From contig CAIKVR010000295.1 of NCBI GenBank assembly GCA_903830915.1, forward strand, positions 1 through 46,114: a stretch of DNA of 46,114 bases, given 5' to 3'. This stretch comes from an uncultured Bacteroidales bacterium (GTDB lineage: Bacteria > Bacteroidota > Bacteroidia > Bacteroidales > Paludibacteraceae). Made by a program: the position numbers and the translations under genes. This document shows positions 3,214 through 37,723 of the stretch, piece after piece; position 1 is the stretch's first letter, and every line of letters starts with the position of its first letter. Under the pieces are notes generated by a model, which was given only the letters and a program-made list of their open reading frames with translations, searched no databases and was not told the origin of the DNA.

Positions 3214-3255
3214 ATAAGTTAAATTAAAGTGAGTTTGATTGTGGAAATTTTTCAG

Positions 3256-3263: not shown

Positions 3264-3317
3264 TTGCAGAAAAATTTATTTATTCATAATAATCACGTGC
3301 ATGTAAATACATTATTT

Positions 3318-3481: not shown

Positions 3482-3678
3482 ATAGAACAGACTATTAAGG
3501 CGTGCTATTCATTTGATAATGAACTTACTATAAAACGTTAAATCGAAGGCTTGGCAGAAACTTTAAATACCTATAATTTAGCGAAGGGTTGATATTAACC
3601 TTGGATTTTGAAGAAAACATTATTGTTAACAACCTTTCTGTCCGAATAATTCCTGTTTGGAAATGGTTGCTTGAGTAA
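3482..3678 (+). pseudogene. C-terminal remnant of a DUF4143/AAA_14-type ATPase
   Basis: The only coding trace on the plus strand. Frame 1 from 3482 reads ...IKACYSFDNELTIKR, an in-frame TAA at 3539, then IEGLAETLNTYNLAKG. A one-base shift at about 3586 continues as LILTLDFEE...IIPVWKWLLE and stops at 3676-3678. Known: ATPases of the DUF4143 family end in a restriction-endonuclease-like domain with this order of motifs, including KREIEGL, EGLIITLD and IPVWKWLL. The TAA replaces the Glu expected in KREIEGL (GAA to TAA), so one nonsense change and one frameshift break the gene. No N-terminal P-loop part remains in the window. Identification is from motif order only. Confidence 0.6.
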
Positions 3679-3819
3679 TTGAGTTATAGGAAGATGGATT
3701 ATCACGATTTTCATATCTAACTTGCACAGTTAATATTAGTTCCAATTCCTATTGGTTTTGTTCCATTTCTAACAGGAAATTGTAATTTTCCAGTTAGATT
3801 CGGTATAATTGGTCTTTTG
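3679..3819. other. Gap without a gene
   Basis: AT-rich spacer between the pseudogene remnant and the GH43 stop codon. A minus-strand frame is open through it and into the GH43 gene, but has no family character. No strong terminator is seen after the GH43 gene. Confidence 0.4.
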
Positions 3820-5559: not shown

Positions 5560-5595
5560 GGCGTATAACTGATTTTAATGAACCTCTAAAAATAC

Positions 5596-5646
5596 AAAAA
5601 AAAACGATTACAACAATCAATATCACTATTAATATGCTGTAATCGT
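5596..5646 (-). terminator. Terminator-like hairpin before the GH43 gene
   Basis: On the minus strand, 9-bp perfect arms (5638-5646 and 5604-5612; ACGATTACA and its complement) with a 25-nt loop are followed by a run of T (5604 down to 5596). This is the form of an intrinsic terminator for the susC operon, although the stem is AT-rich and the loop long. It ends only about 37 nt before the GH43 start codon, so it may act as an attenuator or processing site. Confidence 0.5.
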
Positions 5647-5759
5647 CCTCATCAATCAAAAATTCACACTTCTTCTCTCAAACAAATTATATAAGTCAGG
5701 TTTAGTTATTGGTTAATCTGGAAATTTGATAAAATGACTATTTACTGCTTCACTCTCCT

Positions 5760-5790
5760 TGTATCCTCGTTTACCTGTATCCTCGTTTAC
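5760..5790. repeat. Short tandem direct repeat
   Basis: Two perfect copies of TGTATCCTCGTTTAC (5760-5774 and 5776-5790) with a 16-bp period, just beyond the stop codon of the DUF5017-like gene. No function is assigned. Confidence 0.8.
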
Positions 5791-5794
5791 TTTT

Positions 5795-12445: not shown

Positions 12446-12512
12446 CAAAAATAGAGATTCAACGGGTTAAATGTCGTAAAAATAGTATCAAAAGCTGGGA
12501 ATTTTGTTTCAT
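12446..12512 (-). promoter_or_regulatory. susC promoter with paired 21-bp-spaced operator half-sites
   Basis: The -7 box on the minus strand is TATTTTTG (12446-12453), 60 nt before the susC start. Half-site A (plus-strand reading AAAAATAGTATCAA) is at 12478-12491, 24 nt from the box; half-site B (GAATTTTGTTTCAT) is at 12499-12512, 45 nt from the box. Offsets are identical to three other PUL promoters. Confidence 0.65.
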
Positions 12513-12574
12513 CGCGTTTTTTTGTTAGTTTTAAACCTATATTATTCAGTTTTTTATGTTTAATGTATGTGTTT

Positions 12575-14251
12575 TTATTTCTTTTGAACAATAAAAAAAG
12601 TTAGCTTTACTATTTCTGCCATTCTAATTCTTGGTTCGGTCAATCGTCCCCATTGCCAAGCAGCAACAGTTACTTGTATCGGGAGCTTTGATTTTGGTGG
12701 AATCTTTGTAAAGATAAGTTTTTTGTTTTCAATAATTGCAGGACCAGCCACCACATAAAACTCTACCGGTAAACCTGAATCAGAAGTGGCATTCAGAGTA
12801 ATTGATTTAGTGCCAACTATCACATCAGATATTTTCTCAAAGGTGATTTTTTGAGTTTTACCTGAGGTGTTTTTAGGCAGGGTTAATCCACAAGGTTGGA
12901 ATACGGCTCTTAAACTATCACTTCCTGCTATTCTTACTCCCAAATAATTGGCTGTAGCCGGCCAACTTCTGTCCAATGCTATTCTGAAATGGTTATTTCC
13001 TATGGGCTTGAATTGTCCGCAAACCCACTCAAGCGAGGGTTTTCCAATGGTTTTTGCAAGTTGATCTCCAGCTCCCACTGTGAAATTTGCCGGAATTTTC
13101 TCTAATAATATAGGTTTCACGCTGAATGTAATACCATCTTCACCCATATCGGTTGGAATGAGTTTGGATATGCCATTGAAGATAAACGGTGCAATTTTTC
13201 CACTGTCGTTCAGAAAGGCGGGAATTTGTGTAGCTGCCTTCCAATTTATAGCCGCAAAGGATTGTGCATTTTGTGCGCTTGGTTTATCGAAAAACCAGGG
13301 TAAAGCCTCTGAATCAGTTTTTGTACCAGAACAGACTACAACAGGATGATTCTCATGACCGGGCAAAGGCATATCGGCTAAAAATCCCTTTTCCAGCTTA
13401 ACAGGTTTAAGCTTCGGACTTCCATCTTCAGAAAGTCGCGATTTTGCTACTAAATCAATGTAGTTTGCAAAATAGTTGGCTAATTTCTCCGAGCAATCAA
13501 AATGGCCGCTCGACCCGTCAATAATATAGCTCAATGGCCAGTTCGGATTTTGTTTGCGTTGAGTAAGAATCGCCTCATAAGCAGTATTTACATCATTCCA
13601 ACGTGTACGGATATCCACTTTATCCTGTCCCCATTCCTGAGCTGTTCCAAAAGCCACTAAAGTTGGTACTTCCCTGTTTCTTGGTGGCAAATGATTATTT
13701 TTTATAAAAATCCCGGCAATACAGCGTTCAGGACAATATTCCATTAACGCATCCACCATTAACAAATGACCAGATTCACCCATCGGCAACCAAGGAACAG
13801 TAGCCACTTCAGCATAACCCGAAGTTTCAGCCAGTTTGGTGAGTATTTGTTGAAGGAAATCAACGGTAGTTTTATATTCCAGCGCCATATTCAGTGTTTT
13901 TCCCTCTTTGGTGGATTTGCGAAAATTCATAAAGGTTGGTGTGCTCCAGATGATTCCCAAATCATTCGCTTCGCAGACTTTTCGAATAGCTGTATGACCT
14001 ACCAGCATGTGCTCAGGCACATTGGTACACATAATGAGCAACCCACGAAGTTTTTTACAATTTTCAGGAATCCAGAGATAAAGCGTTGCATTGGTTTTGG
14101 AACTGTCAGCCCAGACTGTACAGGTTCCGGTTTGCATAAACTGAAATACCTGATTAACAGGAGAACGTTTGGATTCGGGGGTTTCCTGAGCTTTTACCTG
14201 AAAACAAAGGCAAAGAATAAAGAGGCTGAGGAATTTTAAAATATTTCTCAT
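12575..14251 (-). CDS. Secreted alpha/beta-hydrolase with C-terminal Ig-like domain (putative esterase)
   Basis: 558 aa with a signal peptide (about 1-21). Seen: an alpha/beta-hydrolase-like N-terminal domain (about 40-275) with a candidate nucleophile S160 in PMGESGH, a non-canonical elbow that lacks the usual GxSxG, and a candidate catalytic H250 in DGSSGHFD; a middle beta-rich region; and a C-terminal Ig-like domain (about 460-555, LNATSDSGLPVEFYVV) common in Bacteroidota PUL proteins. I do not recognise a CAZy esterase family. Inferred: removes acyl groups from the target glycan. Transcribed 42 nt after the 1045-aa lyase gene and before susC. The modified elbow leaves open that it binds rather than cleaves. 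Confidence 0.65.
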   Translation of the reverse strand: MRNILKFLSLFILCLCFQVKAQETPESKRSPVNQVFQFMQTGTCTVWADSSKTNATLYLWIPENCKKLRGLLIMCTNVPEHMLVGHTAIRKVCEANDLGIIWSTPTFMNFRKSTKEGKTLNMALEYKTTVDFLQQILTKLAETSGYAEVATVPWLPMGESGHLLMVDALMEYCPERCIAGIFIKNNHLPPRNREVPTLVAFGTAQEWGQDKVDIRTRWNDVNTAYEAILTQRKQNPNWPLSYIIDGSSGHFDCSEKLANYFANYIDLVAKSRLSEDGSPKLKPVKLEKGFLADMPLPGHENHPVVVCSGTKTDSEALPWFFDKPSAQNAQSFAAINWKAATQIPAFLNDSGKIAPFIFNGISKLIPTDMGEDGITFSVKPILLEKIPANFTVGAGDQLAKTIGKPSLEWVCGQFKPIGNNHFRIALDRSWPATANYLGVRIAGSDSLRAVFQPCGLTLPKNTSGKTQKITFEKISDVIVGTKSITLNATSDSGLPVEFYVVAGPAIIENKKLIFTKIPPKSKLPIQVTVAAWQWGRLTEPRIRMAEIVKLTFFIVQKK

Positions 14252-14293
14252 GATTTCAAAATTATAAGATTTGTATGGTATTAACGCTTTAAA

Positions 14294-17200
14294 CTACTTG
14301 CTTTCCAAAATCATTTTTCCATTACGACTGGTCAGCACTTTAGTCCGGTTATTTTTCACGTCAAAATTTAACTCGTCCGTTTGGTCAGTCCATTTGATAA
14401 TGGCTTTACCGTTGGCAAATTTAATTTCCGGCAATTTTTCGCCATTATAAAACGGAATCAGCAACACTTTATCGTTCAACTGAATACCTTTCTTTTCAAT
14501 AGTCAGGCGGTTGTAGTCTTTACCGTCTTCATCTTTGAGCGTGTTGACGGCCACTTCGGCTCCATTTGCAACGTCGAGGGAGCAAACAAGCAAGAGCGGA
14601 TCACCACTTGCAGGTTCAATGGTTTGATAAGTTTCGCCTTTTTTGAGTGTAACTTGTCTGTCATCGTATCCCAACACGGAACATCCGGCAGGGGTATTCG
14701 GGTAGTTAGCCCTGAAAACGCCTTTGGCAAGCATACCTGTCCATTGATAAAGATGTTGTTTGTCGTCTTTTTTCAAATCATCTACAATCAATCCGTACGA
14801 ATGTTTTCCAAGAATCATACCGGTTGAACGAAAAGCATATTCTACCGGATTCCACAACGCCCGCAGCGTGGGGATAAAGTTGGAATAATTGTATGTTGGC
14901 CACCAGGGACGCATTTTGTAATGGGTTGTTCCCTTGAAAATGCTAAATGTAGCAGAATCGGTTTCGAGTTCCCAACCGTTTTTGGCTACCGTGCTATCGA
15001 TTTTACTGAAACCGGTTCCCCATTTTTGCACCTGGGTGCACCATTGATAGCTGTAACTATACGTTTGATCGACCGAGCCCAAAGCACCGTTTTCGTTCAT
15101 CGACGCTCCGATATAAATGCCTTTGGCGGCAGGTGTTTCGGGTTCTGCTTTGCCGTCGATAATCACTTCGCTGTGGTAACGTCCGGAGTATGTTTTAGGC
15201 ATGGATTCAGTAATCCAGTTCACGCCATTCCCCGAGAAATAAAACATCCCCACATCGGCGTGGTGATGACCGGAGCCGATGTAATGATTGGGGCGAACAT
15301 GCAAACAGAGCCAGGAAGCCTTATCCGAATTGTCGCTCGAAGCGGACATGATTCCATGTACTTCGGTATTCCAGTTGAGGGCTAAATTCAAATCGGCTTT
15401 GGTGGTTGGTTTCCAGTCGGCAACGTAAGGAAATCCAATACCAAAACCGGGATAGGTTGGTCCGGGAAGTCGTACACCTGATATTTTTTTCTCCAAAAAA
15501 GCACGATAAGCCGGCAAATCGAATTTGGCAGGATCTTTTCCCAATTGTTTGTGATAGGGATAATAAGATTCAAAAACATTGGAAATAAGGAAATCGGCGT
15601 TTCGGTCATTCGGGAAAAATGCTTTGAGTTCGGTCACCAACTGCAATGATAAAGGTGTACCACCCCAGGTACCGCTGCTCAGTGTTTCTTTTCCGTTGGG
15701 AGAGGTCGTATAGGTTTGCGCGGTCAGCATTTTGCGCAAATGCGGATGTCCGAACAGGTTATCTCCGCGACGCGCCTGCACCAGCATGGCCAGAAACTCA
15801 AATTGCCAACCACCACCGCTTTTGCCGTTGCTTTCAAACATCTGTCCGTTTTTGTCGATGCCCCATTCTAAGAAGTCTCTTGTCAGTTCGCAACCCGATG
15901 CATACGCTTCCGGGTCAAAACCATCCAATCCTTCGATGGTAGCCATGGCAATGTGTTGGGTCAGATGCCAGGTCATGTGGTTGATATCGCGCCAGGCACG
16001 ACGTGGTCCGTCACCGGCATTCGTTCGGCGGCCATAGGTGGCTTTGGCAATAAAGTTCTGCATAAATTTCTTTTGTTCCGCCGTCATGTATTTCCCTGCA
16101 AAATCGAGCGAAAATGCCAAATCCATGTGCGGCAGTACCCCAACCATGCCACGCCATTGTGTCGAAGCATTGTTTGCGCCATCGGTGCTGATACCAAATT
16201 CTGAATCAGTAGTTTGGATGTAGTTGTCTATTTTCGGCTCTATCACTTTGTAAAAGGTAACCAATGCATTAGCAACGCGTTTACCGAGTTGTTCGTTATC
16301 AGTCAGCAAAGCATACAATGCCATGGTTGTCAGGCAGTTGGTCACATAGGTGATATGCGAATTATGGATGCCCGGTTTGTGGTCTTTGGTGAGTTTAGCG
16401 ACGTGATAGGCTGCCGGTCCTTCGTTTTTGAAATCCTGCAGACTGCGTATTTCATCTACCCGACCTTCTTCAAGGAGTTTGAAAATCTGACCATCGCTGG
16501 TTGTGGGTTCCCACCATGTTTTTTTGAACAAGACTTCGATTTCAATCATCGATTTCTGTGCCGATCTGTTTTCCTGAATGTGTTGTTTCAGCATCGGAAT
16601 ATCTTCGGGACTAAACAACAAACGTGGATAAATACCCGGTGCAGGCACTTTTGAACCCAGTAATTTGAAATTAAATCCACTAAAATCATACGCACTGCGG
16701 GCTGTCTCAGGCCATACGGTTTCGGGACCTTCCTCCAGTTCTTTGAGTTTTTCGGGTGATACACGGGCATGTTCCGTCCATTTTCCCTGCTCTTTTAAGG
16801 TTGGGATGTATTTCATGGTCATATCCGGTTCCATCAGTTTCTCGGGCGTATCAAATGCAGCAACAATACAATCAGAAAGCACCTGATCGTTGTCGTTGTA
16901 AACAATTGGATTATTGCTGATTAACAACAGTCCCCGTTTGGTTTGCAGCAGCTGTTTTCCTAAACTTTTAGCAAATACGGCAGCATCAATATATTTCGTG
17001 CCGTTGATTAAAATCGATGGAACAGTTGCCGGAACATCCGTTTTTGTTCGGCTGAAATCATACACCCAACGCGGTTCAAGAATTTCAAGACCAGCAGGAA
17101 TTGGTTTGGGATTGAACTTGTTGGCAACAAGCATACAGGCAAAACTTTCAGGAACATAGATTGCTCCGTTTTGCAGTACGGCATCACCCCGCAAGATATC

Positions 17201-17431
17201 TTTGTCATCCAGACGGACTTTAAATCCGTTGACATACCCATATTTACTTCCGGCAAAAATGGCGGTGTAATTTTTCAAAGCTTCCATGGCATGTGCCCGG
17301 GCTGAACGGGTATAGGGCAAGCCTTTGTCCTGTTGTGGTATGGACAAATTTTGTGATTGAGTACTTTGAGTGATGAGAAACAGGCAAATGTTGATGGCGA
17401 TTCTTTGGAAAGGGATAACTGATTTTTTCAT
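14294..17431 (-). CDS. Heparinase II/III-like putative polysaccharide lyase (1045 aa) with Cu-amine-oxidase-N-like domain
   Basis: Seen: a signal peptide (about 1-27); a copper-amine-oxidase-N1-like region (about 64-175, KVRLDDKDI, GAIYVPESF); the entry motif shared by the four paralogs, PAPGIYPRLLFSPED (263-277); an alpha/alpha-toroid with Asn-His N484/H485 in DINHMTWHL; and a C-terminal beta-sheet domain with GHHHADVGMF (721-730) and the paralog motif [18 protein letters not shown]. Known: lyases of this fold use Tyr and Asn/His to cleave uronic-acid glycosides by beta-elimination. The Tyr position in the toroid reads GQMFESNG, so Phe may replace the catalytic Tyr. No sorting domain, so probably periplasmic. 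First gene of a transcription unit with the alpha/beta-hydrolase; its promoter carries the shared operator. It is not assigned to a known PL family. Confidence 0.75.
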   Translation of the reverse strand: MKKSVIPFQRIAINICLFLITQSTQSQNLSIPQQDKGLPYTRSARAHAMEALKNYTAIFAGSKYGYVNGFKVRLDDKDILRGDAVLQNGAIYVPESFACMLVANKFNPKPIPAGLEILEPRWVYDFSRTKTDVPATVPSILINGTKYIDAAVFAKSLGKQLLQTKRGLLLISNNPIVYNDNDQVLSDCIVAAFDTPEKLMEPDMTMKYIPTLKEQGKWTEHARVSPEKLKELEEGPETVWPETARSAYDFSGFNFKLLGSKVPAPGIYPRLLFSPEDIPMLKQHIQENRSAQKSMIEIEVLFKKTWWEPTTSDGQIFKLLEEGRVDEIRSLQDFKNEGPAAYHVAKLTKDHKPGIHNSHITYVTNCLTTMALYALLTDNEQLGKRVANALVTFYKVIEPKIDNYIQTTDSEFGISTDGANNASTQWRGMVGVLPHMDLAFSLDFAGKYMTAEQKKFMQNFIAKATYGRRTNAGDGPRRAWRDINHMTWHLTQHIAMATIEGLDGFDPEAYASGCELTRDFLEWGIDKNGQMFESNGKSGGGWQFEFLAMLVQARRGDNLFGHPHLRKMLTAQTYTTSPNGKETLSSGTWGGTPLSLQLVTELKAFFPNDRNADFLISNVFESYYPYHKQLGKDPAKFDLPAYRAFLEKKISGVRLPGPTYPGFGIGFPYVADWKPTTKADLNLALNWNTEVHGIMSASSDNSDKASWLCLHVRPNHYIGSGHHHADVGMFYFSGNGVNWITESMPKTYSGRYHSEVIIDGKAEPETPAAKGIYIGASMNENGALGSVDQTYSYSYQWCTQVQKWGTGFSKIDSTVAKNGWELETDSATFSIFKGTTHYKMRPWWPTYNYSNFIPTLRALWNPVEYAFRSTGMILGKHSYGLIVDDLKKDDKQHLYQWTGMLAKGVFRANYPNTPAGCSVLGYDDRQVTLKKGETYQTIEPASGDPLLLVCSLDVANGAEVAVNTLKDEDGKDYNRLTIEKKGIQLNDKVLLIPFYNGEKLPEIKFANGKAIIKWTDQTDELNFDVKNNRTKVLTSRNGKMILESK

Positions 17432-17450
17432 ACTACATAGATTTGAGCAA

Positions 17451-17517
17451 CAAAAATAGCTTTATATCCGGCACAACAATCTGTGGAATGTATCTAAAAA
17501 CAGAAGATTTGTTACAT
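17451..17517 (-). promoter_or_regulatory. Promoter of the 1045-aa lyase gene with paired operator half-sites
   Basis: The -7 box TATTTTTG (minus strand) is at 17451-17458, 19 nt before the start codon, with a TTG 18 nt upstream of the box. Half-site A (GTGGAATGTATCTA) is at 17483-17496 and B (AAGATTTGTTACAT) at 17504-17517, at the same 24- and 45-nt offsets as the other three promoters. An inverted repeat GGAATGTA/TACATTCC (17485-17492, 17513-17520) overlaps both half-sites. Confidence 0.6.
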
Positions 17518-17579
17518 TCCGGTTAATTTGCTAACTGAAATTATTGTATTTGCTATCTGTTTAAACAAGTCAGTTACCG

Positions 17580-19697
17580 TTATTCAATTTTCAACAGCCT
17601 GTAGCCCATTGGTTTAACTGATGTGGATATAGAAAATTTCTCGTTTGTAAGCACATCGGTCACTGCTTTATTCAATCGGATGGTTTGAGTTTTATTCGAG
17701 AAATTGAGTGCATACAAATACTTTCCGGAGGCACCGGCTACTTCGGTAAGTTCCATTAATTCATTGTCTGAAACTGCCATAGGTTCAATTCCTGCAGATT
17801 TCAGAACATCCCGAAGCAAAATGGAAACCACTTTATCTTCAACCACCGATCCTACGTACCACACAGTGCCTTTTCCAAAACTATTTTTAGAAATAACACA
17901 GCGACCTTTCATGAAACGGCTATCATAACGGGCTACCGGAATGGCTGATTTCAGGGAAAACACATCGTGCCATAAACTGCAGCTGTAGTTTGTGCTGTCT
18001 TTTTCAAATTTTAACGCGGTGCTTTCCAGTCCAATCAGGGCGTGTTGCTCTTCCATTTCAATTCCGGCCAGTTCTTCTACAGAACGGTTCAGGATTCGTC
18101 CGAAGGATTTTACATCTTCGTTTCGTAAACCGGTCATGCAGCTGATTACAAGCGTACAACCATTTCGGGTAGCTGTTTTGAGTCGTTCGCAGAAATCCTC
18201 GTTCAGCAGTACCAGCGACGGAACCACAATCAGTTTGTATTTTTCAAAATTTTCATCCGGAGAAATAATATCGGTAGTTACCGAAGCATTTCGCAGCGCC
18301 CGGTAATAGCCGAAAATGTGCCGCATATACCTGAAGTCCTGAGCAAAACGTCCATCTTCAAAAGCCCAGTCGCACTTAAAATTGCGAATTACTGCTGCTT
18401 TAGCTACAGGCATGGTTTCGCCGGTGAGTTTTTTAATCTGTTGTGCCTCGGTAGCCACCTGTTGTGCCTCCAGAAAACGTCGTCGCGGAACGTTATCTTC
18501 ATCCAGCACACCCACCATTACATGTTCGTGTCCGGCCGGAAAGGTTTTGAACGGAAAGAAATTGATTCCCATGGCTCCCTGCGCCATTTCCTGTATCGAC
18601 CACAACCGTACCATTCCCGGTTCCACGATTTTGCGTTGGTTGCCAGCAGTGCGTCCGATTTGTGCTTCAGTCACCCAGAATGGTGTTTGCTTAGCTCCGC
18701 GAAGTTGCGAAAGTGCCAGCGAAACCATGTGAGGCGAAAAAGTAAACGGTCCTTTGTTGCCGTACTCATTTTCGAGTGTCCAGCCGTAAGGATAATTGTC
18801 GACTGACATAAAATCGCAGCTTTTTGCCATTTTGTACAAATCCAAAAGGTACAAAAAACCGCTCGAACAGATATTGTGAGATACCTTTACTGCGGGGTCA
18901 ACAGTTTTAATGGCATTTCGTTGTAAGTTATAAAAATCGATGGCGCAATCGGAATTAAATTCCATGAAATTCTGAAAACATGAAGGATTATCACCTTTCC
19001 GGGGCAGGTATACTTCATCAAATGAACGCACATTCTGACTCCAGAAAGCAAGATTCCATGCTTTGTTCAGGTTCTCAACGGTTTTGTATTTACCGGCCAG
19101 CCATTGCGAGAACTTTTTCTGACAAAAAGAACAGTAGCAATACGGTTCTTCGGCCATCAACTCGTTATCTATCTGATAGGCAACAACATTGCTGTTTCCT
19201 TTAAACTCATTGGCCATGGCGGTAGCTATTTTGAGGCAGTAATCACGGTAAACGGGATTATTCAGACAGGCATGACGGCGTTTGCCGTAAGGTTTTCGCT
19301 CGCCAGAAGCAGTAAGCTGCATAATATCAGGATGTTTGTCGTACATCCATTTGGGGATGGCAGCCGTAGGTGTGGCCAGAAAACTTTGAACACCGGCTTT
19401 GCTTAATATATCCACAGCCGAATGCAGCCACGAAAAATCATACCTTCCCTCCTGCGGTTCCATTAAATCCCAAACCAGATCACCCATCCGCGCCACATTA
19501 AATCCGGCCTGCTTCATCAGTCGGGCATCCTGTTCAATTTCTGTTTTTGCAGACAAATTCGGATAATAATCGGACCCGATAAACATGGGCTGTGAGGATA
19601 GTTTCTGATTTACATCCTTTTCACCTGCAGCAAAAACAGTGCTTGAAATGCACAGCATTAGAACCGGAAGAACCGATATTTTTTTAAGATTTTTCAT
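17580..19697 (-). CDS. GH42 beta-galactosidase (secreted)
   Basis: 705 aa from the ATG at 19697 (MKNLKK), which gives a good signal peptide (about 1-23). An open frame extends further upstream but only overlaps the next gene. Seen: the GH42 TIM barrel with acid/base E179 (AYQIDNEL) and nucleophile E344 (WVTEAQ); the GH42 zinc-site cysteines C144 and C187, C189, C192 (YCYCSFC); and the trimerisation and C-terminal beta domains to residue 705. Known: GH42 enzymes release beta-linked galactose from short galactosides. Many GH42 enzymes are cytoplasmic; the signal peptide places this one in the periplasm. Last gene of the unit that begins with the 919-aa lyase. With the GH43_24-like enzyme next to it, it argues for beta-galactan in the substrate. 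Confidence 0.92.
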   Translation of the reverse strand: MKNLKKISVLPVLMLCISSTVFAAGEKDVNQKLSSQPMFIGSDYYPNLSAKTEIEQDARLMKQAGFNVARMGDLVWDLMEPQEGRYDFSWLHSAVDILSKAGVQSFLATPTAAIPKWMYDKHPDIMQLTASGERKPYGKRRHACLNNPVYRDYCLKIATAMANEFKGNSNVVAYQIDNELMAEEPYCYCSFCQKKFSQWLAGKYKTVENLNKAWNLAFWSQNVRSFDEVYLPRKGDNPSCFQNFMEFNSDCAIDFYNLQRNAIKTVDPAVKVSHNICSSGFLYLLDLYKMAKSCDFMSVDNYPYGWTLENEYGNKGPFTFSPHMVSLALSQLRGAKQTPFWVTEAQIGRTAGNQRKIVEPGMVRLWSIQEMAQGAMGINFFPFKTFPAGHEHVMVGVLDEDNVPRRRFLEAQQVATEAQQIKKLTGETMPVAKAAVIRNFKCDWAFEDGRFAQDFRYMRHIFGYYRALRNASVTTDIISPDENFEKYKLIVVPSLVLLNEDFCERLKTATRNGCTLVISCMTGLRNEDVKSFGRILNRSVEELAGIEMEEQHALIGLESTALKFEKDSTNYSCSLWHDVFSLKSAIPVARYDSRFMKGRCVISKNSFGKGTVWYVGSVVEDKVVSILLRDVLKSAGIEPMAVSDNELMELTEVAGASGKYLYALNFSNKTQTIRLNKAVTDVLTNEKFSISTSVKPMGYRLLKIE

Positions 19698-19725
19698 TGA
19701 ATCAGTGTGATAAATTTCATTCAAT

Positions 19726-20967
19726 TTATTTTTTCGCATTAAAAACCGACAAATCCCAGGCATTGAGCCACGAAATGCTGAAACGGTCTTTTTCAAACCT
19801 GATGGGCAACCAAACATAGCCGCTGGCAATGAGATTCTCCGGTCGCCAGGTATCAAAAAGGGCAATAAAAGCCCCGGGCTGTCCTTGAACCGGAAGTATG
19901 AAAGTGCTCTGAGCGCCAAAAGTAAGTTCCGGTCCGAGATGATTGCGTGGTGTTGCGCCAGTGCAGGGATTTCCCAAATCTTTCCACGGTCCCCAGATAG
20001 ACTCAGCCACTGCTGAACGTGAGGCGTTGGGGTTCCAACCCGTGCAATTGGATGTAAGCATCCAGTAACGACCTTTGTACTTACATACAGCAGGTGCTTC
20101 GTGCCACAAGTATTCAAAAACGCGGGTCCACTTTCCGGTGTGCGACAAATAATCGTCGCTCAGTTCAGAGATGTGCAAAGTGGCATTTTCCTCGGATGAA
20201 AAAATATGATAAGCTTTCCCGTCGTCATCCACAAACAGGGTCATATCTTTTGCCATTTGTCCACCGGCAAAATCACGCACCATAAAAGGAAGTTTTGCCC
20301 TGTCGGGATGCGGACTCCCGATAAACGAAGTGCCAATCAGCTTTTGCGCTTCCGGCAGACTTGCTTTTTGTTCGTCGGTTACGTTAAGCGGCCAATGCCC
20401 GGCATCCGGATGTTCGGAATGAAGGTATGTGAAAGGCCCTGTCGGTTGGTCGGAAACTGCAACTCCGCTTCGACCGGATTTTCGGAGCTGATTTTTCAAC
20501 TCCAGATGAAACCACATCACAAACTTTTGAGTCTTTTGGTTGTAAATCACTTTGGGTCGCTCAATGATACAGCCGGCAGAAATTTCAGAGGCTGAATCGT
20601 CGGAAGTCGATAAGGCAGCACCTTCATCTTTCCAGTTATACAAATCGGTGGATGAATAGCAGTGAACGGCAATTTTGCCTACCGTTTCTCCGGCAAGTTT
20701 GTGTTCGCCATACAAATAATACGTTCCGTTGTGATACAAAACTCCGGCACCATGGGCATTCAGATGCACCCCGTTGTTATCGAGCCAGGGCTGATCGGGT
20801 AAGAATTTTGATAGGGTTTTACCTTCGGTTGCCGACTTCTGCTCCTTCGTTGTATTATTCGCTGAAGTGTTTGTTCTGATTGTTTTTTCAGCAGCAATTG
20901 TTTGATAAACAAACAGTTGAAAGATACAAACGATAGCTATGAATGTTTTGGAATGCATATTTTTCAT
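19726..20967 (-). CDS. GH43 (subfamily 24-like) putative exo-beta-1,3-galactanase
   Basis: 413 aa from the ATG at 20967, which overlaps the TGA of the preceding gene (TGATG), so translation is probably coupled. Signal peptide about 1-26. Seen: blade 1 reads LNAHGAGVLYHNGTYYLYGE (69-88), without the DPD motif of the GH43 catalytic base; D241 (AKDMTLFVDDDG) and the probable acid E290 (HEAPAV) are present. Known: GH43_24 exo-beta-1,3-galactanases lack the usual base Asp and use another residue, and share the motifs IERPKVIYNQKT and TSNCTGWNPNASR. Inferred: trims beta-1,3-galactan, as in arabinogalactan. A related GH43 subfamily (such as 34) cannot be ruled out. Confidence 0.8.
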   Translation of the reverse strand: MKNMHSKTFIAIVCIFQLFVYQTIAAEKTIRTNTSANNTTKEQKSATEGKTLSKFLPDQPWLDNNGVHLNAHGAGVLYHNGTYYLYGEHKLAGETVGKIAVHCYSSTDLYNWKDEGAALSTSDDSASEISAGCIIERPKVIYNQKTQKFVMWFHLELKNQLRKSGRSGVAVSDQPTGPFTYLHSEHPDAGHWPLNVTDEQKASLPEAQKLIGTSFIGSPHPDRAKLPFMVRDFAGGQMAKDMTLFVDDDGKAYHIFSSEENATLHISELSDDYLSHTGKWTRVFEYLWHEAPAVCKYKGRYWMLTSNCTGWNPNASRSAVAESIWGPWKDLGNPCTGATPRNHLGPELTFGAQSTFILPVQGQPGAFIALFDTWRPENLIASGYVWLPIRFEKDRFSISWLNAWDLSVFNAKK

Positions 20968-22202
20968 CAATTAAAAATAAATCCACCAGAAACGCTCAGA
21001 TTGCGTACATCTTTCAGGCTGAAAAATCCGATTTTGAAATCCGGTTTTTTGCATACGATGGTTTTGCATTTGTTATCAACCCTTGCTTTCAGTTCTTTCC
21101 ATTCACGTTTCGTATTCGGACTTGTCAGGTCGTTTGAATAATAAAATGAAGCCGACGAAACAGTGATATCGGTCTGAAATGGCAGAATCATAAGCGAATC
21201 AGTGCGTTGAACCTCACGGGTTTTTACAAGCGGATAGCCATCGTTCAGCACACTTTCGAAAAAGCATTTAATCTCTTCGGGTGCCCAACCATCTGGATGA
21301 CTGTGTTTCATATCGGGAAAGATAGTAACCGTTCTTTGTTCCGGTTTTATCAGAGAGCAGGTTTTATGATAAGCATTTACGTAGAACCAGGCGTCTTTGT
21401 TTCCGTTGATAAACAGAAATTTAGGTTGAGCAGAAGCTAAATATGCTGATGGATCAAAGTTCTTCAACCATTTCAGGTTATCAGCCGGACTCATTTTAGC
21501 CAGATCGCTCCGAAACACACAGTCGCTGTAAAAACCGCAGCCATAGACTGGAGCAGCAGCTTTAAACCTGTTATCGAGCGAAGCTGCGATGCAAGTGAGA
21601 TATCCACCCCAACTGATTCCGGTAATCACCGTTTTATCAGCATCCACCTCAGGCAAGCTCAACAACAGTGAATGAGCCAGAATCACATCGGCCACAGCAT
21701 GGTAGCTCCACATATTGTGTAAATCCCCTAGGGCAATATCCTCAAACTTCTCTTTTTTATCCTGTCCCGGCCCTCTGCCATCAAATTTATCCTCATTACC
21801 ACCCGTGGCGCTTAAATCGACTGCCAGAGCAGCATAACCACTTGCAGCCCATTTTTCCACCCATTCTTTGAAGGCTTTTCCACCACCGCCGTGAATCAGA
21901 ATGATTCCCGGATATTTAGGTTTTTCAGTCTTAATGCAACTCAGCAGTGCCGGATTGGAATAATAGGCAAAAACACGGGTCGGCCTGCCGTTGTAAATCA
22001 GTCCGTCAAAAGCCAGTGAACTAACCGGATTTTTGGTGTTCAGCCAGCTAAAAGCGGGTGCATCGCTTAGTTTCTTTAAATCCCACAGCAAACTGTCAAC
22101 TTTGATTGCTGAGACGTCAATCGGATGCCCGTTCCGGGCTTCTATCTGATTTACAGACAAAAACAAACAGATTACAAGAATTCTGGCGCTGATTTTGTTC
22201 AT
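20967..22202 (-). CDS. Secreted alpha/beta-hydrolase, acetyl xylan esterase-like
   Basis: 411 aa; signal peptide about 1-22. Seen: oxyanion motif HGGGG (104-108), nucleophile S197 in GISWGG, Asp D270 in NGNKD and His H300 (MKHSH), giving a complete Ser-Asp-His triad in the order of the S9/acetyl-xylan-esterase group; a short C-terminal beta extension (about 330-411). Known: such enzymes remove acetyl or other acyl groups from glycans or are dipeptidyl-peptidase-like; the PUL context favours a carbohydrate esterase. Overlaps the GH43_24-like start by one base and follows another hydrolase by 17 bp. Confidence 0.75.
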   Translation of the reverse strand: MNKISARILVICLFLSVNQIEARNGHPIDVSAIKVDSLLWDLKKLSDAPAFSWLNTKNPVSSLAFDGLIYNGRPTRVFAYYSNPALLSCIKTEKPKYPGIILIHGGGGKAFKEWVEKWAASGYAALAVDLSATGGNEDKFDGRGPGQDKKEKFEDIALGDLHNMWSYHAVADVILAHSLLLSLPEVDADKTVITGISWGGYLTCIAASLDNRFKAAAPVYGCGFYSDCVFRSDLAKMSPADNLKWLKNFDPSAYLASAQPKFLFINGNKDAWFYVNAYHKTCSLIKPEQRTVTIFPDMKHSHPDGWAPEEIKCFFESVLNDGYPLVKTREVQRTDSLMILPFQTDITVSSASFYYSNDLTSPNTKREWKELKARVDNKCKTIVCKKPDFKIGFFSLKDVRNLSVSGGFIFN

Positions 22203-22219
22203 GGCTTCAGTTCTTAGGT

Positions 22220-23257
22220 TTACTTTTGCTTTCCTTTAGGAATCCACGCCGGAGTTTTCGACACCACTAGTGTTGGTTCTCCTTTCAGAAAGCCAAGTGA
22301 AATCAGAAACTTATCTGCTTCGCGAATGGCACTGACCACCACTTCTTCGGGCGCTTTCCAGTTGGCACACACGAAAGCATGGGTCGTATTAGGTAATAGT
22401 ATCAGTTTACATGAATTGCCTGCTTTTTTCAAGGCTTCAGTAAATTTTACCGATTGTTCAGGAAGAATGACAGTATCATCAGTTCCATGCAGTACCAGCG
22501 TAGGAGGCTGGTTTTTATGTACATTATAAATTGGAGAAAGCTTTCTCGCCAACTCAGTTTGTTCGTTGGTTGGAATGAGACTTTCCGGCGCAGGTTTTTT
22601 ATCGAGCGTAGCTCCGCCAATAATCCGATTCATAAAAACACTTGTTGTAAAGTCGGATAAAGGATTATAAAGCACCATGGCATTGGGTTTGGGGCTGATT
22701 TTCAAATTATCAGCGGGGTCATCAAAACCCTCAATTGTACCCAAGCAAGAGGCTAAATGACCACCGGCCGAATCTCCCATCACAATGATTTTATCAGGGT
22801 CGACTCCCAATTCAGCTGCATGTTCGCGAATATATCGAATGGCTGATTTGCTGTCGGCAAGGCAATCGGAAACAGTAGTACCGTATGCTTTCACAAGGCG
22901 GTATTGAATGCAAAAACCTACCGCACCACGGGCTGCGAAATATCGGGCATGCAGAAAAAAACTTTCGGTAGTTCCACCCGTCCATCCACCTCCGTGAATC
23001 CACACCACAGCTGTTCGTTTTTCACCGGGTTTAAAGTCGGCAGGTTGTATGTAAAAGATTTTGACTTCTTCATTATTAATGGTTTTTATTATGACTTCAC
23101 ACATTTTCGGACCACGCAGAAGAGAATCCGGAGATATGCTTTTCTGAATTCTCTCAGAAGGCATCAAAACCGTTTCGGCAGTCAGTTCAATGCAGAAAGT
23201 GATGAAACATAACAGCAATATCCGAAAAACCATGCGGGAAGTACAGAATTTCTTCAT
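22220..23257 (-). CDS. Secreted alpha/beta-hydrolase (HSL / BD-FAE-like carbohydrate esterase)
   Basis: 345 aa; signal peptide about 1-27. Seen: oxyanion motif HGGG (88-91), nucleophile S163 in GDSAGG, acid D260 or D261 (HGTDD) and H293 (TTHAF), the classic hormone-sensitive-lipase-type layout found in feruloyl and acetyl esterases of PULs. No binding domain. Known: BD-FAE-type enzymes act on feruloylated or acetylated xylan or pectin fragments. Inferred: periplasmic de-esterification of imported oligosaccharides. It lies 10 bp after the 919-aa lyase gene and 17 bp before the next esterase, so it is in the same operon. Confidence 0.8.
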   Translation of the reverse strand: MKKFCTSRMVFRILLLCFITFCIELTAETVLMPSERIQKSISPDSLLRGPKMCEVIIKTINNEEVKIFYIQPADFKPGEKRTAVVWIHGGGWTGGTTESFFLHARYFAARGAVGFCIQYRLVKAYGTTVSDCLADSKSAIRYIREHAAELGVDPDKIIVMGDSAGGHLASCLGTIEGFDDPADNLKISPKPNAMVLYNPLSDFTTSVFMNRIIGGATLDKKPAPESLIPTNEQTELARKLSPIYNVHKNQPPTLVLHGTDDTVILPEQSVKFTEALKKAGNSCKLILLPNTTHAFVCANWKAPEEVVVSAIREADKFLISLGFLKGEPTLVVSKTPAWIPKGKQK

Positions 23258-23267
23258 AATTAGCTTT

Positions 23268-26027
23268 CTAATTCTTTATCAGTAATTTAGCCTGTCTTTC
23301 TGATACACCCTTCGTGATTTTTAAAATGTAATAGGCTGATGGCAGGGTGGAAACATTGATATCAATATCGTTGTTTTTACAAAGAAATTTCATTTTTTCC
23401 CTGCCGGATAAATCGGAAATTGTAATCGTCGAATCAGCAACATCCTTCAAAATAATTGTTTTCGATGCCGGATTGGGTAAAATAATCAAATCTGAGTTTT
23501 CTATATTTAGTGCTGTGACGTAGGTTGGCATCATACTTACATTGGTACGACCATTGGTCACAATGAAAGCCAAGTTAGCTGTCTGATCGGTCCAGTTTAC
23601 ATTCAGATTGGTTTTATCGGCATTCCAGCTTGTTGAAGGCAGCGATTCCCCTGCAAGATGTGGAAACAAAAGCACTTTAAAATCAGGCGAAACGCTTTTC
23701 GATTCACATACCAGTCGGTAATTTTTATAACTTTTACCATCGCCGGTTGTGTACCACGTGGTGTCAATTTTTGCCGGAACAGTTCCTGAAACATAATCGC
23801 TCTGATTCAGCATCCTGACCAGCAATTTCCGGTTTCCGGAACTTTCCTTTAGCACCACATCGTACATGCCGTTGCCCTTGTCGGTTGTCGATTCAATCAG
23901 CACATCGGTGGCCAGTTGCATCGTCCATTTGTAGGTATGTGTTTTTGTATCTTTTTTGGCATCATCCACTACGAGCAGGGCCGGATGATTGCCACGTATC
24001 ATAGCCATCGTTCGGTACACTTTTTCCATCGTGTTGTAAGGTCGTTTAATGATGGTTTCGCGGTAACCGGCCGGTGAATTCCAGGCAGCAAATTCATAAA
24101 AAGGTATGGAGTAAAAATTTTCGGATGACTGATTTACACGGAATGTATTCAGATTTTCGCTTACTTTCGTCCATGCTTTTTTTCCTGCATCTACTTTCCC
24201 CAGCAACGAATTATCTTTTCCGGCTGCAAGTGCACTCCAGCTCCATTCCCACGAATAAGCATAGGTGGCATCGCCGGTGGCTTGCGAAAATTTATCACTG
24301 CCCGACCAGCTGAGCAGTTTTGCAGGTTGACGAAGTTTGTTTCCTTCCAGATTGGTAATTATCATGGCCGAATCGTCGACAAACAAACAGCTGTGAGCTT
24401 CCGATACATCATAATAGGCACTTCCCGGTGCTGAACGCAGAGGAACCCATATTCGTCCGTGCGAACTCAGCGTGAAGCTGTTACGGTCGGCATTGGTATG
24501 TCCACCCAGATTCTGACGCACATTGAATATAGTCTGTAGGGCATTTTTATTCCAGTCGCTGCGCAAAATGACTTGTCCGCGGTCGGTCTCGAAAAAATCT
24601 AGGTTTTTTAAGGCAGCTTGTGCTTTGATGCTGAAATCGACCGCTGCCCAATCGCTGACATAAGCCTGAAGCACTGCAAAATAGTCGTGATAACTGGTTG
24701 TACAAGGATCCATTACACCACCCGCATAATCAGCCACTTCTTGATTGTTAACCGTATTTCCTACATAATTTCGCCACATAAAATCCACACCATCATCATT
24801 CGGATAAGCCCATTTGAGCCCCACAGCATCGATGACTGAAAATTTATATTTTCCAAGCTGCACATTTGTTCCGCTTCCGCCCAAAGCATCATCTCCTGTA
24901 AACGAATAACCGAAAGGCTGACTTAGTGTCGGCAAATAATTGTTTCCAAAAGCCCGCAAATGTGGATGTCCCAACATGCTGTAACCGCGTTTGGCCATAG
25001 CAATCTGATAACCGGTATTCATGTAGTTTTTCCCGAGTCCTTCCCAGCCACAACCGCTGTTGTAAAATCCGTAAGATACAAATTTATAAAACACTTTTGC
25101 CCACTCGTGTGTGAGAGTTGGTTTGTATCCGGTTTCCCCTTCGATTGCCAGATTGGGAATAATTTCAAAACTGTTTAGGGCAGTCCAGTTGCTCAGGGTA
25201 GCATACGGTTCCACCGTGTTTCCATACCGAGGATCAACCGGAACTATCACTGCAATGGCTTTACGAATGGTATCGCGCTGCCCGTTGGTCATAGCCCAAT
25301 AATTCAGGTCATAAGCAATTGGGAAAGCCATTCCGCCGATTTTGGTATAATTCACGGCACTCAATCCATAGCACGATGCCGCAAAAGCATAAGCCGTCAT
25401 AGCTTTGGCTAATTTTTTTGCTCGTGCCAAATAAGTCATTTTGGTATCGGGGTCGTAATTGTTTTTGTAAATCAAACATTCAAAGGCTTCCATCGAAAGC
25501 ATATTCGAGAAAGCTCCGGTTGCACCACCGTTTTTCAGTTTTACCAAGGTATAACCTGTTGTATCACCGGCAGCAAAAGTATCGTATATGGGTTTCATAT
25601 CCCAATAACCGGGATTGGAAACATAAGTCTGACCCAAACTGTTTTTGGCATAGGAAGCGTTGTTGCTGAAGGTTCCGCCGGTATAACCCAGATTTAACAG
25701 CGTGGTAAAAGCATGACGTTTGCGGTTCAGTTCTTTGCCATTTATGGTGGTATTGAGACGGATGCGGATATCGGAAGTATCTTCGGGATTGAAAAAAATG
25801 CGGGGATGTACCCCAACCGCAGGTGCATGTTTAATGGTACGAACTCCGGTATAGTCAAAAGTCCAGATACGGGTTCCCACTTCGGACGACGTGAAATTTT
25901 TCCACTGATAATCAAATCCTCCGGTCTGCGACTGACCGATTTTGCTTAGGTCGGCTTCCCAGGTTTGAGCAGTTAAACCAGAGAAAATAAAAACAAATAA
26001 TGTAAAACTAAAAAAACTCTTTTTCAT
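23268..26027 (-). CDS. Heparinase II/III-like putative lyase (919 aa) with T9SS sorting domain
   Basis: Signal peptide about 1-20. Seen: paralog entry motif VGVHPRIFFNPED (71-83), alpha/alpha-toroid, GLGKNYMNTGY (331-340) at the Tyr region, the beta-sheet motif GGHTNADRNSF (509-518; H510, D514), LLVVDDAKKDTKTHTYKW, VNWTDQTANL, and a C-terminal T9SS sorting domain (about 845-919; LPNPASKTI, DLSGREKM, AYYILKI). Odd: where the other three paralogs have Asn-His, this one has N280-W281 (LSNWTALN), so the neutraliser His is missing. Known: T9SS cargo is exported across the outer membrane and often anchored. Inferred: a surface lyase or a binding variant acting before import. First gene of a five-gene unit. 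Confidence 0.75.
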   Translation of the reverse strand: MKKSFFSFTLFVFIFSGLTAQTWEADLSKIGQSQTGGFDYQWKNFTSSEVGTRIWTFDYTGVRTIKHAPAVGVHPRIFFNPEDTSDIRIRLNTTINGKELNRKRHAFTTLLNLGYTGGTFSNNASYAKNSLGQTYVSNPGYWDMKPIYDTFAAGDTTGYTLVKLKNGGATGAFSNMLSMEAFECLIYKNNYDPDTKMTYLARAKKLAKAMTAYAFAASCYGLSAVNYTKIGGMAFPIAYDLNYWAMTNGQRDTIRKAIAVIVPVDPRYGNTVEPYATLSNWTALNSFEIIPNLAIEGETGYKPTLTHEWAKVFYKFVSYGFYNSGCGWEGLGKNYMNTGYQIAMAKRGYSMLGHPHLRAFGNNYLPTLSQPFGYSFTGDDALGGSGTNVQLGKYKFSVIDAVGLKWAYPNDDGVDFMWRNYVGNTVNNQEVADYAGGVMDPCTTSYHDYFAVLQAYVSDWAAVDFSIKAQAALKNLDFFETDRGQVILRSDWNKNALQTIFNVRQNLGGHTNADRNSFTLSSHGRIWVPLRSAPGSAYYDVSEAHSCLFVDDSAMIITNLEGNKLRQPAKLLSWSGSDKFSQATGDATYAYSWEWSWSALAAGKDNSLLGKVDAGKKAWTKVSENLNTFRVNQSSENFYSIPFYEFAAWNSPAGYRETIIKRPYNTMEKVYRTMAMIRGNHPALLVVDDAKKDTKTHTYKWTMQLATDVLIESTTDKGNGMYDVVLKESSGNRKLLVRMLNQSDYVSGTVPAKIDTTWYTTGDGKSYKNYRLVCESKSVSPDFKVLLFPHLAGESLPSTSWNADKTNLNVNWTDQTANLAFIVTNGRTNVSMMPTYVTALNIENSDLIILPNPASKTIILKDVADSTITISDLSGREKMKFLCKNNDIDINVSTLPSAYYILKITKGVSERQAKLLIKN

Positions 26028-26054
26028 TCTGTTTTGTGATTAAATAGTAAGTTC

Positions 26055-26121
26055 CAAAAATAGGTCAATTTTATATGAAACTACCCGATTATTGTTTCAA
26101 TTTTTATGATTTTTGTTTCAA
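26055..26121 (-). promoter_or_regulatory. Promoter of the 919-aa lyase unit with paired operator half-sites
   Basis: The -7 box TATTTTTG (minus strand) is at 26055-26062, 27 nt before the start codon. Half-sites GATTATTGTTTCAA (26087-26100) and GATTTTTGTTTCAA (26108-26121) are near-identical direct repeats with a 21-bp period, the clearest pair of the four. Offsets from the box are 24 and 45 nt. Confidence 0.7.
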
Positions 26122-26133
26122 CTTATAAAAGTA

Positions 26134-26172
26134 AAAAAGCCCTGCAGTCAGATAACTTGCAGGACTTTTTCT
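26134..26172 (-). terminator. Intrinsic terminator after the beta-helix gene
   Basis: Arms AAAGCCCTGCA and TGCAGGACTTT (one mismatch) with T-runs on both sides, 20 nt beyond the stop codon at 26192. On the minus strand the stem is followed by TTTTTT. It separates the single-gene beta-helix unit from the next promoter. Confidence 0.75.
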
Positions 26173-26191
26173 TATCAAATCAATACATAAA

Positions 26192-28006
26192 TTACTTCAC
26201 AAACTTCAATCTTTCATTACCAATGGTGAGAATATAAACTCCTGAATGTAAATTATTCAACTTTAGGTTATCTGATTTTGCTACCTGATTTAAAAGGCTC
26301 TGACCTGAGGCATTATATAATCCAACTTTTGTTCCAAGCTGAACACCGCTGATTGTTACATTATCGTTCAGGATATTAATTTTGATCGTTGATTCCTTAG
26401 CCAGATTAGTTCCGGTAGTTAAATCAACAGCATAAGTAATTACAGGATCGCTAACTGAAGCTGGAATATTAATGCTATGTAATCCGGCACCTTTATAATC
26501 AACACCATCCACCGTAATCATATATCCGCTACGGATGGTAGCGTTCAAAGTCATAGCTTTTCCTGTGTTTCGTTTTACATCAAATATCTGGGTGTGAGTA
26601 TATGTCCCAACATTTTCTGTAGCCTTAAATGTTTTGTTTAAAACAATTTTATCTGTAATTTTTAAATCACCTGATAAAGCGAGTGCGATTGTTGAATCTT
26701 TTAAATAACCCGTAGTGGCATATAAAATAGAAGGAGAAACGGCATCAAATGTATTACTTGATGTAAAATAGACTCCATTCAAAATCGAATTTGTAAATGT
26801 TGAAGAAGTACTTGCAGCAGTTGATGTAATACTCATTACATCAGCTTTATTACTGGCTTTTGCACCTCCAGAATAGTTGTAATTAGACAGAACACATCCG
26901 TTTAATGTTACGGTTAGATTATTTGTAGTGGCAGGAGTTGTAGCATATTGATCGGCATCAATAGCTGCACGTGCAACAGTTAATCTTTTGGCATAATTTC
27001 CAATCAAACTACAATTTGTCAAATTGAGATAGTTGGTAGGAATTGTATTAAACCAAAATACAGACCCTTTGGCCGTACAACTATTATTGACAAATATTGA
27101 ACGGGTCACATTGAATGTACTACTATACGTTCCGCTAGTAATATAAAAACAACCGCCACTGGTTACATTATCTGCTGCATTGGTACAGTAATTTGAATCA
27201 AACACACAATCACTAATGTTAACAGTCATATTAGCAGTAAAGTAACCAGCACCCCCACGACCATAAGCCGTGTTGTTTTTGAATGTCGAATTCTTAATGT
27301 TTATAGTCTTTGCTGTTGCGCCATTATTAAAATACATTGCCCCACCGTATCCGTTGCCAGTTGTGAAGTTTGCCTGATTGCCTGTAAAAGTACAACCGTC
27401 AAATGTAATGATGCCATTATAGACAAAACTTGCCATTACAAATGCGCCTCCAACTGCATTTAGCGAAACATTGTTGATAAAATTCAAATTTTTGAAGTCA
27501 ACATCACTTTGTGCTGATGTTAGTGTGATTGCTACACCAGAATTAGCTGTCGTCATGGTAAAACCCTTAAAATTTAGTCCATCCAACACAATTTTTTGAC
27601 CTGCAACAGTTGGTGCAACTGTTGCGTTTATTGAAAGGCAGCGTGATGTGCCACCCACTGAAGGAGCAAATATGGTTGAATCAGCAACTAAGTTACGCAA
27701 AGTTAAATCAGTACCTGTAGAGCTGGCAGCATAACCACCATAAATAGAAATGTACTTGGCAATAGTCTTAGATGCCGAACTTAAATACGTTCCAGCAGCG
27801 AGGTATACCACATCACCATCTGCAATCCCCGAAGGATTTGTCCCTGTAATTACTGATACATTACAAGCGTTTTCCCAACTATCACCGGCACTTGAAGTAG
27901 ATGCACCAGATTTTACAAACCAGTCTCTAGCAGACAACATGCTAATAAATAAAAATGATAGCACAACTGCACTCACCACTCTTTTTGAAAGTACGAATTT
28001 TTTCAT
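26192..28006 (-). CDS. T9SS-secreted right-handed beta-helix protein (604 aa)
   Basis: Signal peptide about 1-26 (SMLSA|R). Seen: a start typical of polymorphic-membrane-protein/pectate-lyase-like helices (DWFVKSGAS, GDSWENA, GGYAASSTGTDL), repeated beta-helix coils with N-, G- and F-rich turns (about 60-450), a linker, and a C-terminal T9SS sorting domain (about 535-604; GVQLGTKVGLYNASGQSLL, GVYILTIG). No catalytic residues can be pointed out. Known: such helices serve as polysaccharide lyases, hydrolases or surface adhesins. Inferred: surface-exposed, used for binding or degrading the target glycan. It stands alone between a promoter with the shared operator and a terminator. Confidence 0.75.
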   Translation of the reverse strand: MKKFVLSKRVVSAVVLSFLFISMLSARDWFVKSGASTSSAGDSWENACNVSVITGTNPSGIADGDVVYLAAGTYLSSASKTIAKYISIYGGYAASSTGTDLTLRNLVADSTIFAPSVGGTSRCLSINATVAPTVAGQKIVLDGLNFKGFTMTTANSGVAITLTSAQSDVDFKNLNFINNVSLNAVGGAFVMASFVYNGIITFDGCTFTGNQANFTTGNGYGGAMYFNNGATAKTINIKNSTFKNNTAYGRGGAGYFTANMTVNISDCVFDSNYCTNAADNVTSGGCFYITSGTYSSTFNVTRSIFVNNSCTAKGSVFWFNTIPTNYLNLTNCSLIGNYAKRLTVARAAIDADQYATTPATTNNLTVTLNGCVLSNYNYSGGAKASNKADVMSITSTAASTSSTFTNSILNGVYFTSSNTFDAVSPSILYATTGYLKDSTIALALSGDLKITDKIVLNKTFKATENVGTYTHTQIFDVKRNTGKAMTLNATIRSGYMITVDGVDYKGAGLHSINIPASVSDPVITYAVDLTTGTNLAKESTIKINILNDNVTISGVQLGTKVGLYNASGQSLLNQVAKSDNLKLNNLHSGVYILTIGNERLKFVK

Positions 28007-28055
28007 AATTTACTTTGATTTTAAATATTAATTGATTCTGTTTGATTTTATAATG

Positions 28056-28122
28056 CAAATGTATGGTGAAATTGAAAAATACAATAGAAAAATAATTTCA
28101 TTTATTGGTAGAAATGTTACAT
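28056..28122 (-). promoter_or_regulatory. Promoter of the beta-helix gene with paired operator half-sites
   Basis: The -7 box TACATTTG (minus strand) is at 28056-28063, 49 nt before the start codon, with a -33 TTG at 28082-28084 (18-nt spacing). Half-sites AAAAATAATTTCAT (28088-28101) and TAGAAATGTTACAT (28109-28122) sit at the same 24- and 45-nt offsets as in the other three promoters. Half-site A directly abuts the -33 element. Confidence 0.6.
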
Positions 28123-37677: not shown

Positions 37678-37723
37678 TGAATGGAAGTTTGATTGGATTA
37701 AGGTTTTCAAAATTACAGAAATT

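Follow-up and report, generated by a model that had tools for sequence, protein, structure and literature searches.

The Escherichia coli activator AraC binds direct half-sites about 21 bp apart at araI1-I2, the proximal one adjoining the -35 region, and differs from the system described here in being a soluble sugar-binding regulator that acts at a sigma-70 promoter. The closest described parallels are the hybrid two-component system (HTCS) regulons of Bacteroides thetaiotaomicron, whose motifs are direct repeats averaging 21 bp (Ravcheev 2013, PMC3878776; like the other reports cited here, available in part). A similar arrangement occurs in a 46,114-nucleotide contig from an uncultured Bacteroidales bacterium of the Paludibacteraceae (CAIKVR010000295.1, here C295 of genome G000), the whole of which is our window. 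In four promoters of its polysaccharide utilization locus (PUL), the -7 box is preceded at a constant distance by a 21-bp direct repeat. These four are probably activator-dependent promoters of a single HTCS regulon whose most likely reader is an HTCS encoded on another contig, C277.

The regulon is new and its kind is known, the 21-bp repeat period having been published in 2013. It shares with the B. thetaiotaomicron regulons an AraC-type HTCS, direct repeats of about 21 bp, and targets that include PUL operons and distant genes; it differs in organism and in that its proposed regulator is unlinked to the PUL (PMC3878776). The motifs are alike in their period, and the available part of that report gives no repeat-to-box distance. 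Primary sigma promoters of Bacteroidota have TAnnTTTG at -7, and a -33 TTTG was not found in Flavobacterium johnsoniae (PMC7366714, in part); the promoters described here have the same -7 box, with no fixed -33 TTTG and an upstream repeat instead. The accessible literature that was searched, most subscription journals being outside its scope, contained no evident footprint of an HTCS site and no statement of a fixed repeat-to-box distance, and PMC12125979, in its available part, treats a Vibrio AraC-type regulator rather than an HTCS. The present analysis points to a candidate regulator for a PUL whose own contig encodes none, and would unite operons from three or more contigs in one regulon. 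The constant distance, found in two motif classes of the genus, also provides a testable rule for HTCS-controlled promoters.

Four promoters with a 21-bp direct repeat

The intergenic promoters of susC and of the genes for proteins of 1045, 919 and 604 amino acids (aa) have the coding-strand layout WTGWAACA-N13-WWGAWAYW-N30-TAnnTTTG, which comprises a B octamer, an A octamer and the Bacteroidota -7 box. Half-sites B and A form a direct repeat with a period of 21 bp and a single distance to the box in 4/4 cases. The first-pass annotation had read the plus-strand B octamers correctly as TGTTTCAT (susC), TGTTACAT (1045 and 604) and TGTTTCAA (919), and its claim that the offsets agree to the base at all four promoters is borne out. 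Its values of 24 and 45 nt for these offsets do not hold, the gaps from octamer to box being 30 nt for A and 51 nt for B; the difference of 21 stands. The A octamers, 21 bp downstream of B on the coding strand, are TTGATACT, TAGATACA, TTGAAACA and ATGAAATT in the order susC, 1045, 919 and 604, and the box is TATTTTTG in three modules and TACATTTG in one. In the 919 promoter (26093-26121) both octamers are identical (TTGAAACA) and exactly 21 bp apart. From the end of the box to the start codon, the leaders measure 60 nt (susC), 19 nt (1045), 27 nt (919) and 49 nt (604). Among the minus-strand genes at 3820-45984, the modules occupy four of the five intergenic gaps longer than 100 nt, and the fifth (5560-5794) is without a site; gaps were taken from the gene ends, with one GH42 start entered by hand. 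A fixed -33 TTTG is absent from 23 aligned sites (the seven from G000 included), in which G occurs in at most 7 per column across columns 28-58.

A scan of the whole assembly (4.74 Mb, 436 contigs, 87% complete) with the pattern TGWAACA-N14-TGAWAC-N31-TANNTTTG gave four matches without mismatches, three with one, one with two and 23 with three. Seven places therefore match with at most one mismatch: the four window sites that defined the pattern (susC and 919 with none, 1045 and 604 with one) and three new ones elsewhere. Simulated sequence (24 Mb, three-base contexts, both strands) produced 0, 7 and 98 matches at up to one, two and three mismatches, against 7, 8 and 31 in the genome. Scaled to one genome, this corresponds to fewer than about 0.6 (95%), 1.4 and 19.4, the last including about 18 with exactly three mismatches, so the 23 three-mismatch matches were dropped as background. 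The two-mismatch match (C112:11753) is antisense within an open reading frame and was likewise dropped as chance. The reversed pattern had 20 matches at up to three mismatches in the same genome. Within 259 kb of loci from this genome, some of them fetched because they contain matches, only period 21 of the periods 16-26 and only gap 31 of the TGAWAC-to-box gaps 26-37 gave matches at up to one mismatch (n=7 each). The first-pass annotation had named occurrence of the pair before many unrelated genes as a finding that would speak against it; this is not seen, since the seven matches precede susC, secreted-type or carbohydrate-type genes.

An eighth candidate, C118:5787-5852, resembles a site in congener G041 (C269:21855) that also has five mismatches and stands before the corresponding operon, which is GH88-like by its N-terminus as judged by eye. 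Both have the box TTAATTTG and a gap one base longer. The genome thus holds eight candidate sites, two of them weak (this one and 1045), which join several transcription units and support the earlier proposal of a single regulon. In the region C118:5640-5960, candidate sites stand back to back in the divergent promoters that separate a gene of the type IX secretion system (T9SS) class from the GH88-GH43 operon.

A matrix was built from 16 sites in six other genomes, all picked with this geometry and none from G000. Its top four matches in G000 are C148:26177, C295:28056 (604), C148:7797 and C295:12446 (susC), with E values from 9.5e-9 to 1.1e-4, which places the 604 and susC sites second and fourth genome-wide (53 matches, looked at on C295, C148 and C118). 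Unfiltered scoring of the window alone ranks the four modules as the top four of 66 matches listed, at 32.1 bits (604), 26.8 (919), 24.9 (susC) and 10.3 (1045). Chance agreement in AT-rich DNA could be entertained for half-sites that are short and AT-rich, and the 1045 site alone is near the matrix background. The simulation, the reversed-pattern control and the cross-species matrix all speak against chance, and for the set of sites we reject it as extremely improbable on the basis of the scan of this genome, the reversed control and the simulation. The neighbouring sulfur region (1-3800), offered in the first-pass annotation as an internal control, indeed has no full-length matrix match, but a lone promoter is a weak control and its best partial match reaches 9.8 bits against 10.3 for the 1045 site. 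The real tests are the genome-wide scan and the cross-species matrix rather than a single neighbouring promoter.

The sites are conserved before orthologous PUL genes for susC, 604 and 919 and not for 1045. Three congeners, G041, G001 and G045, keep the susC site; in the last two the box gap is 32, one base longer. The 919 ortholog of G041 keeps its site with two mismatches. Before homologs of the 604 gene, the same kind of site is present in G001, G018 and G041, where the homologs were identified by tblastn; visual comparison of N-termini adds G025, G042 and G045. Similar targets recur elsewhere: a very large secreted-type protein gene has a site on C148 and in G001, G018, G025, G041 and G045 (likeness by eye), and the kind of esterase gene found on C148 also has one in G018. 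A pattern scan of 48 genomes of the genus, in which the A half-site was widened to TGAWAY after the 604 site had been seen, returned 65 matches against 3 for the reversed pattern, some of the 65 being other motif classes.

A candidate regulator on contig C277

The likely reader is a predicted HTCS of 1347 aa (G000:C277:4124-8167). A Pfam scan of this protein and its G041 counterpart identifies Reg_prop, Y_Y_Y, HisKA, HATPase_c, Response_reg and HTH_18, so that both have the HTCS make-up of propeller sensor, HisKA, HATPase_c, receiver and AraC-type helix-turn-helix in one protein. The first-pass annotation had expected an AraC-family or HTCS reader encoded near the locus. The best supported reader is indeed an HTCS whose DNA-binding domain is of AraC type, but a regulator on the window contig is rejected, since none of the 29 HTH_18 matches of this genome falls on C295.

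The association between sites and this HTCS comes from other genomes. In G041 the HTCS gene is divergent from the 919 ortholog, and the sole G000 member of its ortholog group is the C277 protein (73% identity). The group is present in 6/48 genomes, G000 included, at 62-73% identity to the C277 protein, and the next best relative has 40%. In four of the five testable genomes, the divergent intergenic region next to the HTCS ortholog contains a site, with one mismatch in G001, G042 and G045 and two in G041; C277 itself is the exception, and the G025 copy is cut by its contig. Leaving out G000, at least two zero-mismatch sites occur in 4/5 ortholog carriers and 1/42 other genomes (G018; Fisher p 1.4e-4), and at least one in 5/5 carriers and 6/42 others (p 3e-4). 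A stricter genus-wide matrix scan (E<=0.002, with stricter filters) matched nine of 48 genomes, namely the six ortholog carriers, G018, G027 and G044. The G027 match is degenerate and lies about 0.7 kb beyond that genome's own 37%-identical HTCS, and the G044 match is partial. In G032, which has the next HTCS relative (40%), a zero-mismatch site lies between that HTCS gene and a susC. Identity across the 85 residues of the DNA-binding domain is 74-77 in three orthologs, 43 in G032 and 26-35 in nine paralogs from G000.

In the regulon proposed here, the propeller sensor of the C277 protein, from its presumed location, would recognise a fragment of an inducing glycan, and the kinase would phosphorylate the fused receiver. 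Two AraC-type DNA-binding domains would then bind both half-sites, which a spacing of 21 bp, or two helical turns, would place on one face of the DNA. The proximal half-site TGAWAC would occupy positions of approximately -48 to -43, a short way upstream of the would-be -33 element, if transcription starts where the -7 box predicts. Because the aligned sites have no fixed -33 element, the regulator would activate these promoters by recruiting the primary sigma factor to their TAnnTTTG boxes.

Several results weigh against this reading. At 10.3 bits, the 1045 site does not stand out from the next two window matches (9.9 and 9.8 bits); it has no genome-wide match at E<=10, and it was not found upstream of the G041 ortholog, which lies inside a longer operon. 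It is the weakest of the four sites and, taken alone, could be non-functional. Genome-wide, the 919 site is a partial match only (rank 8, E 0.033), outranked by partial matches on C377, C270 and C118. Because the congeners are relatives, with almost the same beta-helix-gene site in G001, G042 and G045, the counts lack independence, and phylogeny is left out of account in the Fisher test. The ortholog search in the other genomes scored the 13 best first-look candidates per genome. Six of the nine genomes matched in the genus-wide matrix scan had supplied training sites, and the zero-mismatch G032 site missed its E 0.002 threshold. The receiver loop motif is DHIP in the C277 protein, G001 and G045, NHIP in G041 and AHIP in G032; the orthologs thus have D or N at a position that is S or C in 84% of HTCSs, the S/CHIP motif being common and not universal (PMC11253607, in part). 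This substitution may bear on the HTCS inhibition mechanism. The C277 gene is unlinked to the PUL, and no site within four mismatches lies near it. Its neighbours are presumably of housekeeping type, rplT/infC-like and gltX-like judging by their sequence starts. G018 carries sites and has no ortholog in its 83%-complete assembly.

The lack of linkage at C277 and the G018 sites, together with the incompleteness of the G000 assembly and its 29 HTH_18 matches, would also suit real HTCS or AraC-type sites whose reader is a different regulator of the HTCS or AraC kind, which the assembly may lack. We consider this unlikely, since a site is divergent from the C277 ortholog in most testable genomes and ortholog presence tracks the sites. 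Moreover, the G001 contigs with sites at up to one mismatch, C36 aside, have no HTH_18 gene among the matches listed, and the two G041 sites that share a contig with an HTH_18 gene among the matches listed lie more than 7 kb from it. A SusR-like membrane regulator is another conceivable reader because direct repeats before PULs are a feature of SusR-like motifs too, but these are published with a spacing of 67 or 77 bp (PMC3878776) and here it is 21; the HTCS association is independent evidence against it. We rejected this reader on its spacing, and it is scarcely credible.

Generality of the repeat-to-box distance

HTCS promoters across Bacteroidota may share a grammar of regulator-specific half-sites, a 21-bp period and a proximal TGnnA(C/G) core that ends 31-32 nt before TAnnTTTG. 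If this is true, sequence alone would suffice to predict target promoters and also to assign regulators to PULs that lack one. We put this rule forward tentatively, as less likely than not.

The distance is seen in a second motif class of the genus, TGTATCAAAANTACACGATGATG. A search for this class with no box in the pattern covered nine genomes, most of them chosen because the class had occurred there earlier. The class was found at 16 places in eight of the nine (G001, G016, G017, G025, G029, G032, G033 and G037) and not in G000. TAnnTTTG follows TGNNAC by exactly 31 nt in all 16, and no box-less copy turned up. Thirteen of the copies had come up earlier with patterns in which a box at this spacing was already demanded, which lowers our confidence in the general rule; the three independent copies (G016:C17:129, G016:C21:6963 and G037:C314:8572) have the box at the same distance. 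The shared geometry bears on the possibility that the octamers serve not as an activator site but as elements of the core promoter or of an ECF sigma factor, or as a genus-wide upstream element. The fixed distance to the -7 box would fit such elements, but the pattern occurs at just seven places in the genome at up to one mismatch, an ordinary TAnnTTTG box follows the repeat, and a different sequence class with the same geometry is expected for different activators on one core promoter. We regard these elements as a highly unlikely explanation.

Beyond the genus, the rule is suggested by a distant set of 56 loci with HTCS relatives, some of them outside Bacteroidota. Here a period-21 repeat precedes 13 of 59 intergenic TAnnTTTG boxes (nine loci), and other periods from 12 to 30 give 0-2 each; the gaps from the 8-mers to the box spread over 23-52. 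Six control boxes gave 1-7 at period 21 (TTTG..TA 7/62), which means that some of the signal is independent of the box. TGNNA(C/G) pairs at period 21 before the box, several of them possibly from one locus, have gaps of 31 (two) and 32 (four) only, out of 20-45. The loci closer to home give no support for a general rule. Nine contigs with HTCS paralogs from G000 have no such pair, and 1/36 boxes has a period-21 repeat, at a different gap. Ten congener HTCS loci likewise have no such pair; 2/20 boxes have a period-21 repeat, one of these a recurrence of the same sequence.

Genes of the locus and of the other sites

The genes taken at 3820-45984, all on the minus strand, constitute the PUL and include susC, susD, DUF5017, GH43, GH42, GH95 and esterase genes as well as genes for large lyase-like or beta-helix proteins. 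The first operon of the window (45193-46114) reaches the contig end, and its promoter is out of view.

Table 1. Promoter modules, associated genes and further matches in genome G000
Feature	Contig	Position	Strand	Details
susC promoter module	C295	12446..12512	-	B 12505-12512; A 12484-12491; -7 box 12446-12453
1045-aa gene promoter module	C295	17451..17517	-	B 17510-17517; A 17489-17496; -7 box 17451-17458
919-aa gene promoter module	C295	26055..26121	-	B 26114-26121; A 26093-26100; -7 box 26055-26062
604-aa gene promoter module	C295	28056..28122	-	B 28115-28122; A 28094-28101; -7 box 28056-28063
DUF5017 gene	C295	5795-6985	-	after susD; Pfam
susD	C295	7066-9051	-	after susC; Pfam
susC	C295	9065..12385	-	TIGR04056, 832 bits; Pfam
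1045-aa lyase-like protein	C295	14294..17431	-	no Pfam match; followed by 558-aa gene 12575-14251
919-aa lyase-like protein, predicted T9SS export	C295	23268..26027	-	Por_Secre_tail; followed by esterase, GH43-like and GH42 genes
604-aa protein	C295	26192..28006	-	DUF6383 / T9SS-type tail
New match	C148	7797		up to one mismatch; precedes SASA-type esterase gene
New match	C148	26177		up to one mismatch; 152 nt before start of 1940-aa protein that has fn3 and a T9SS tail scoring below cut-off
New match	C118	5668		up to one mismatch; precedes 789-aa T9SS protein, divergent from GH88-GH43 operon
Weaker candidate	C118	5787-5852		before GH88-GH43 operon; matrix E 0.019; five mismatches to the simple pattern

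The 604-aa protein had been labelled a T9SS beta-helix protein; its T9SS tail scores just above the NCBIfam cut-off, and the beta-helix is not confirmed by Pfam. Searches of the 1045-, 919- and 604-aa proteins against PDB with phmmer returned no matches. The PUL contains four mutually homologous large lyase-like proteins (14294-17431, 23268-26027, 28372-30936 and 33301-37710), whose catalytic part has no Pfam family at cut-off. A profile of these four paralogs and three homologs matches a dermatan-sulfate epimerase chain (E 2.8e-9), with weaker matches to PL35 chondroitinase, oligo-alginate lyase and heparinase II/III-like chains, which suggests that the four proteins may act as lyases.

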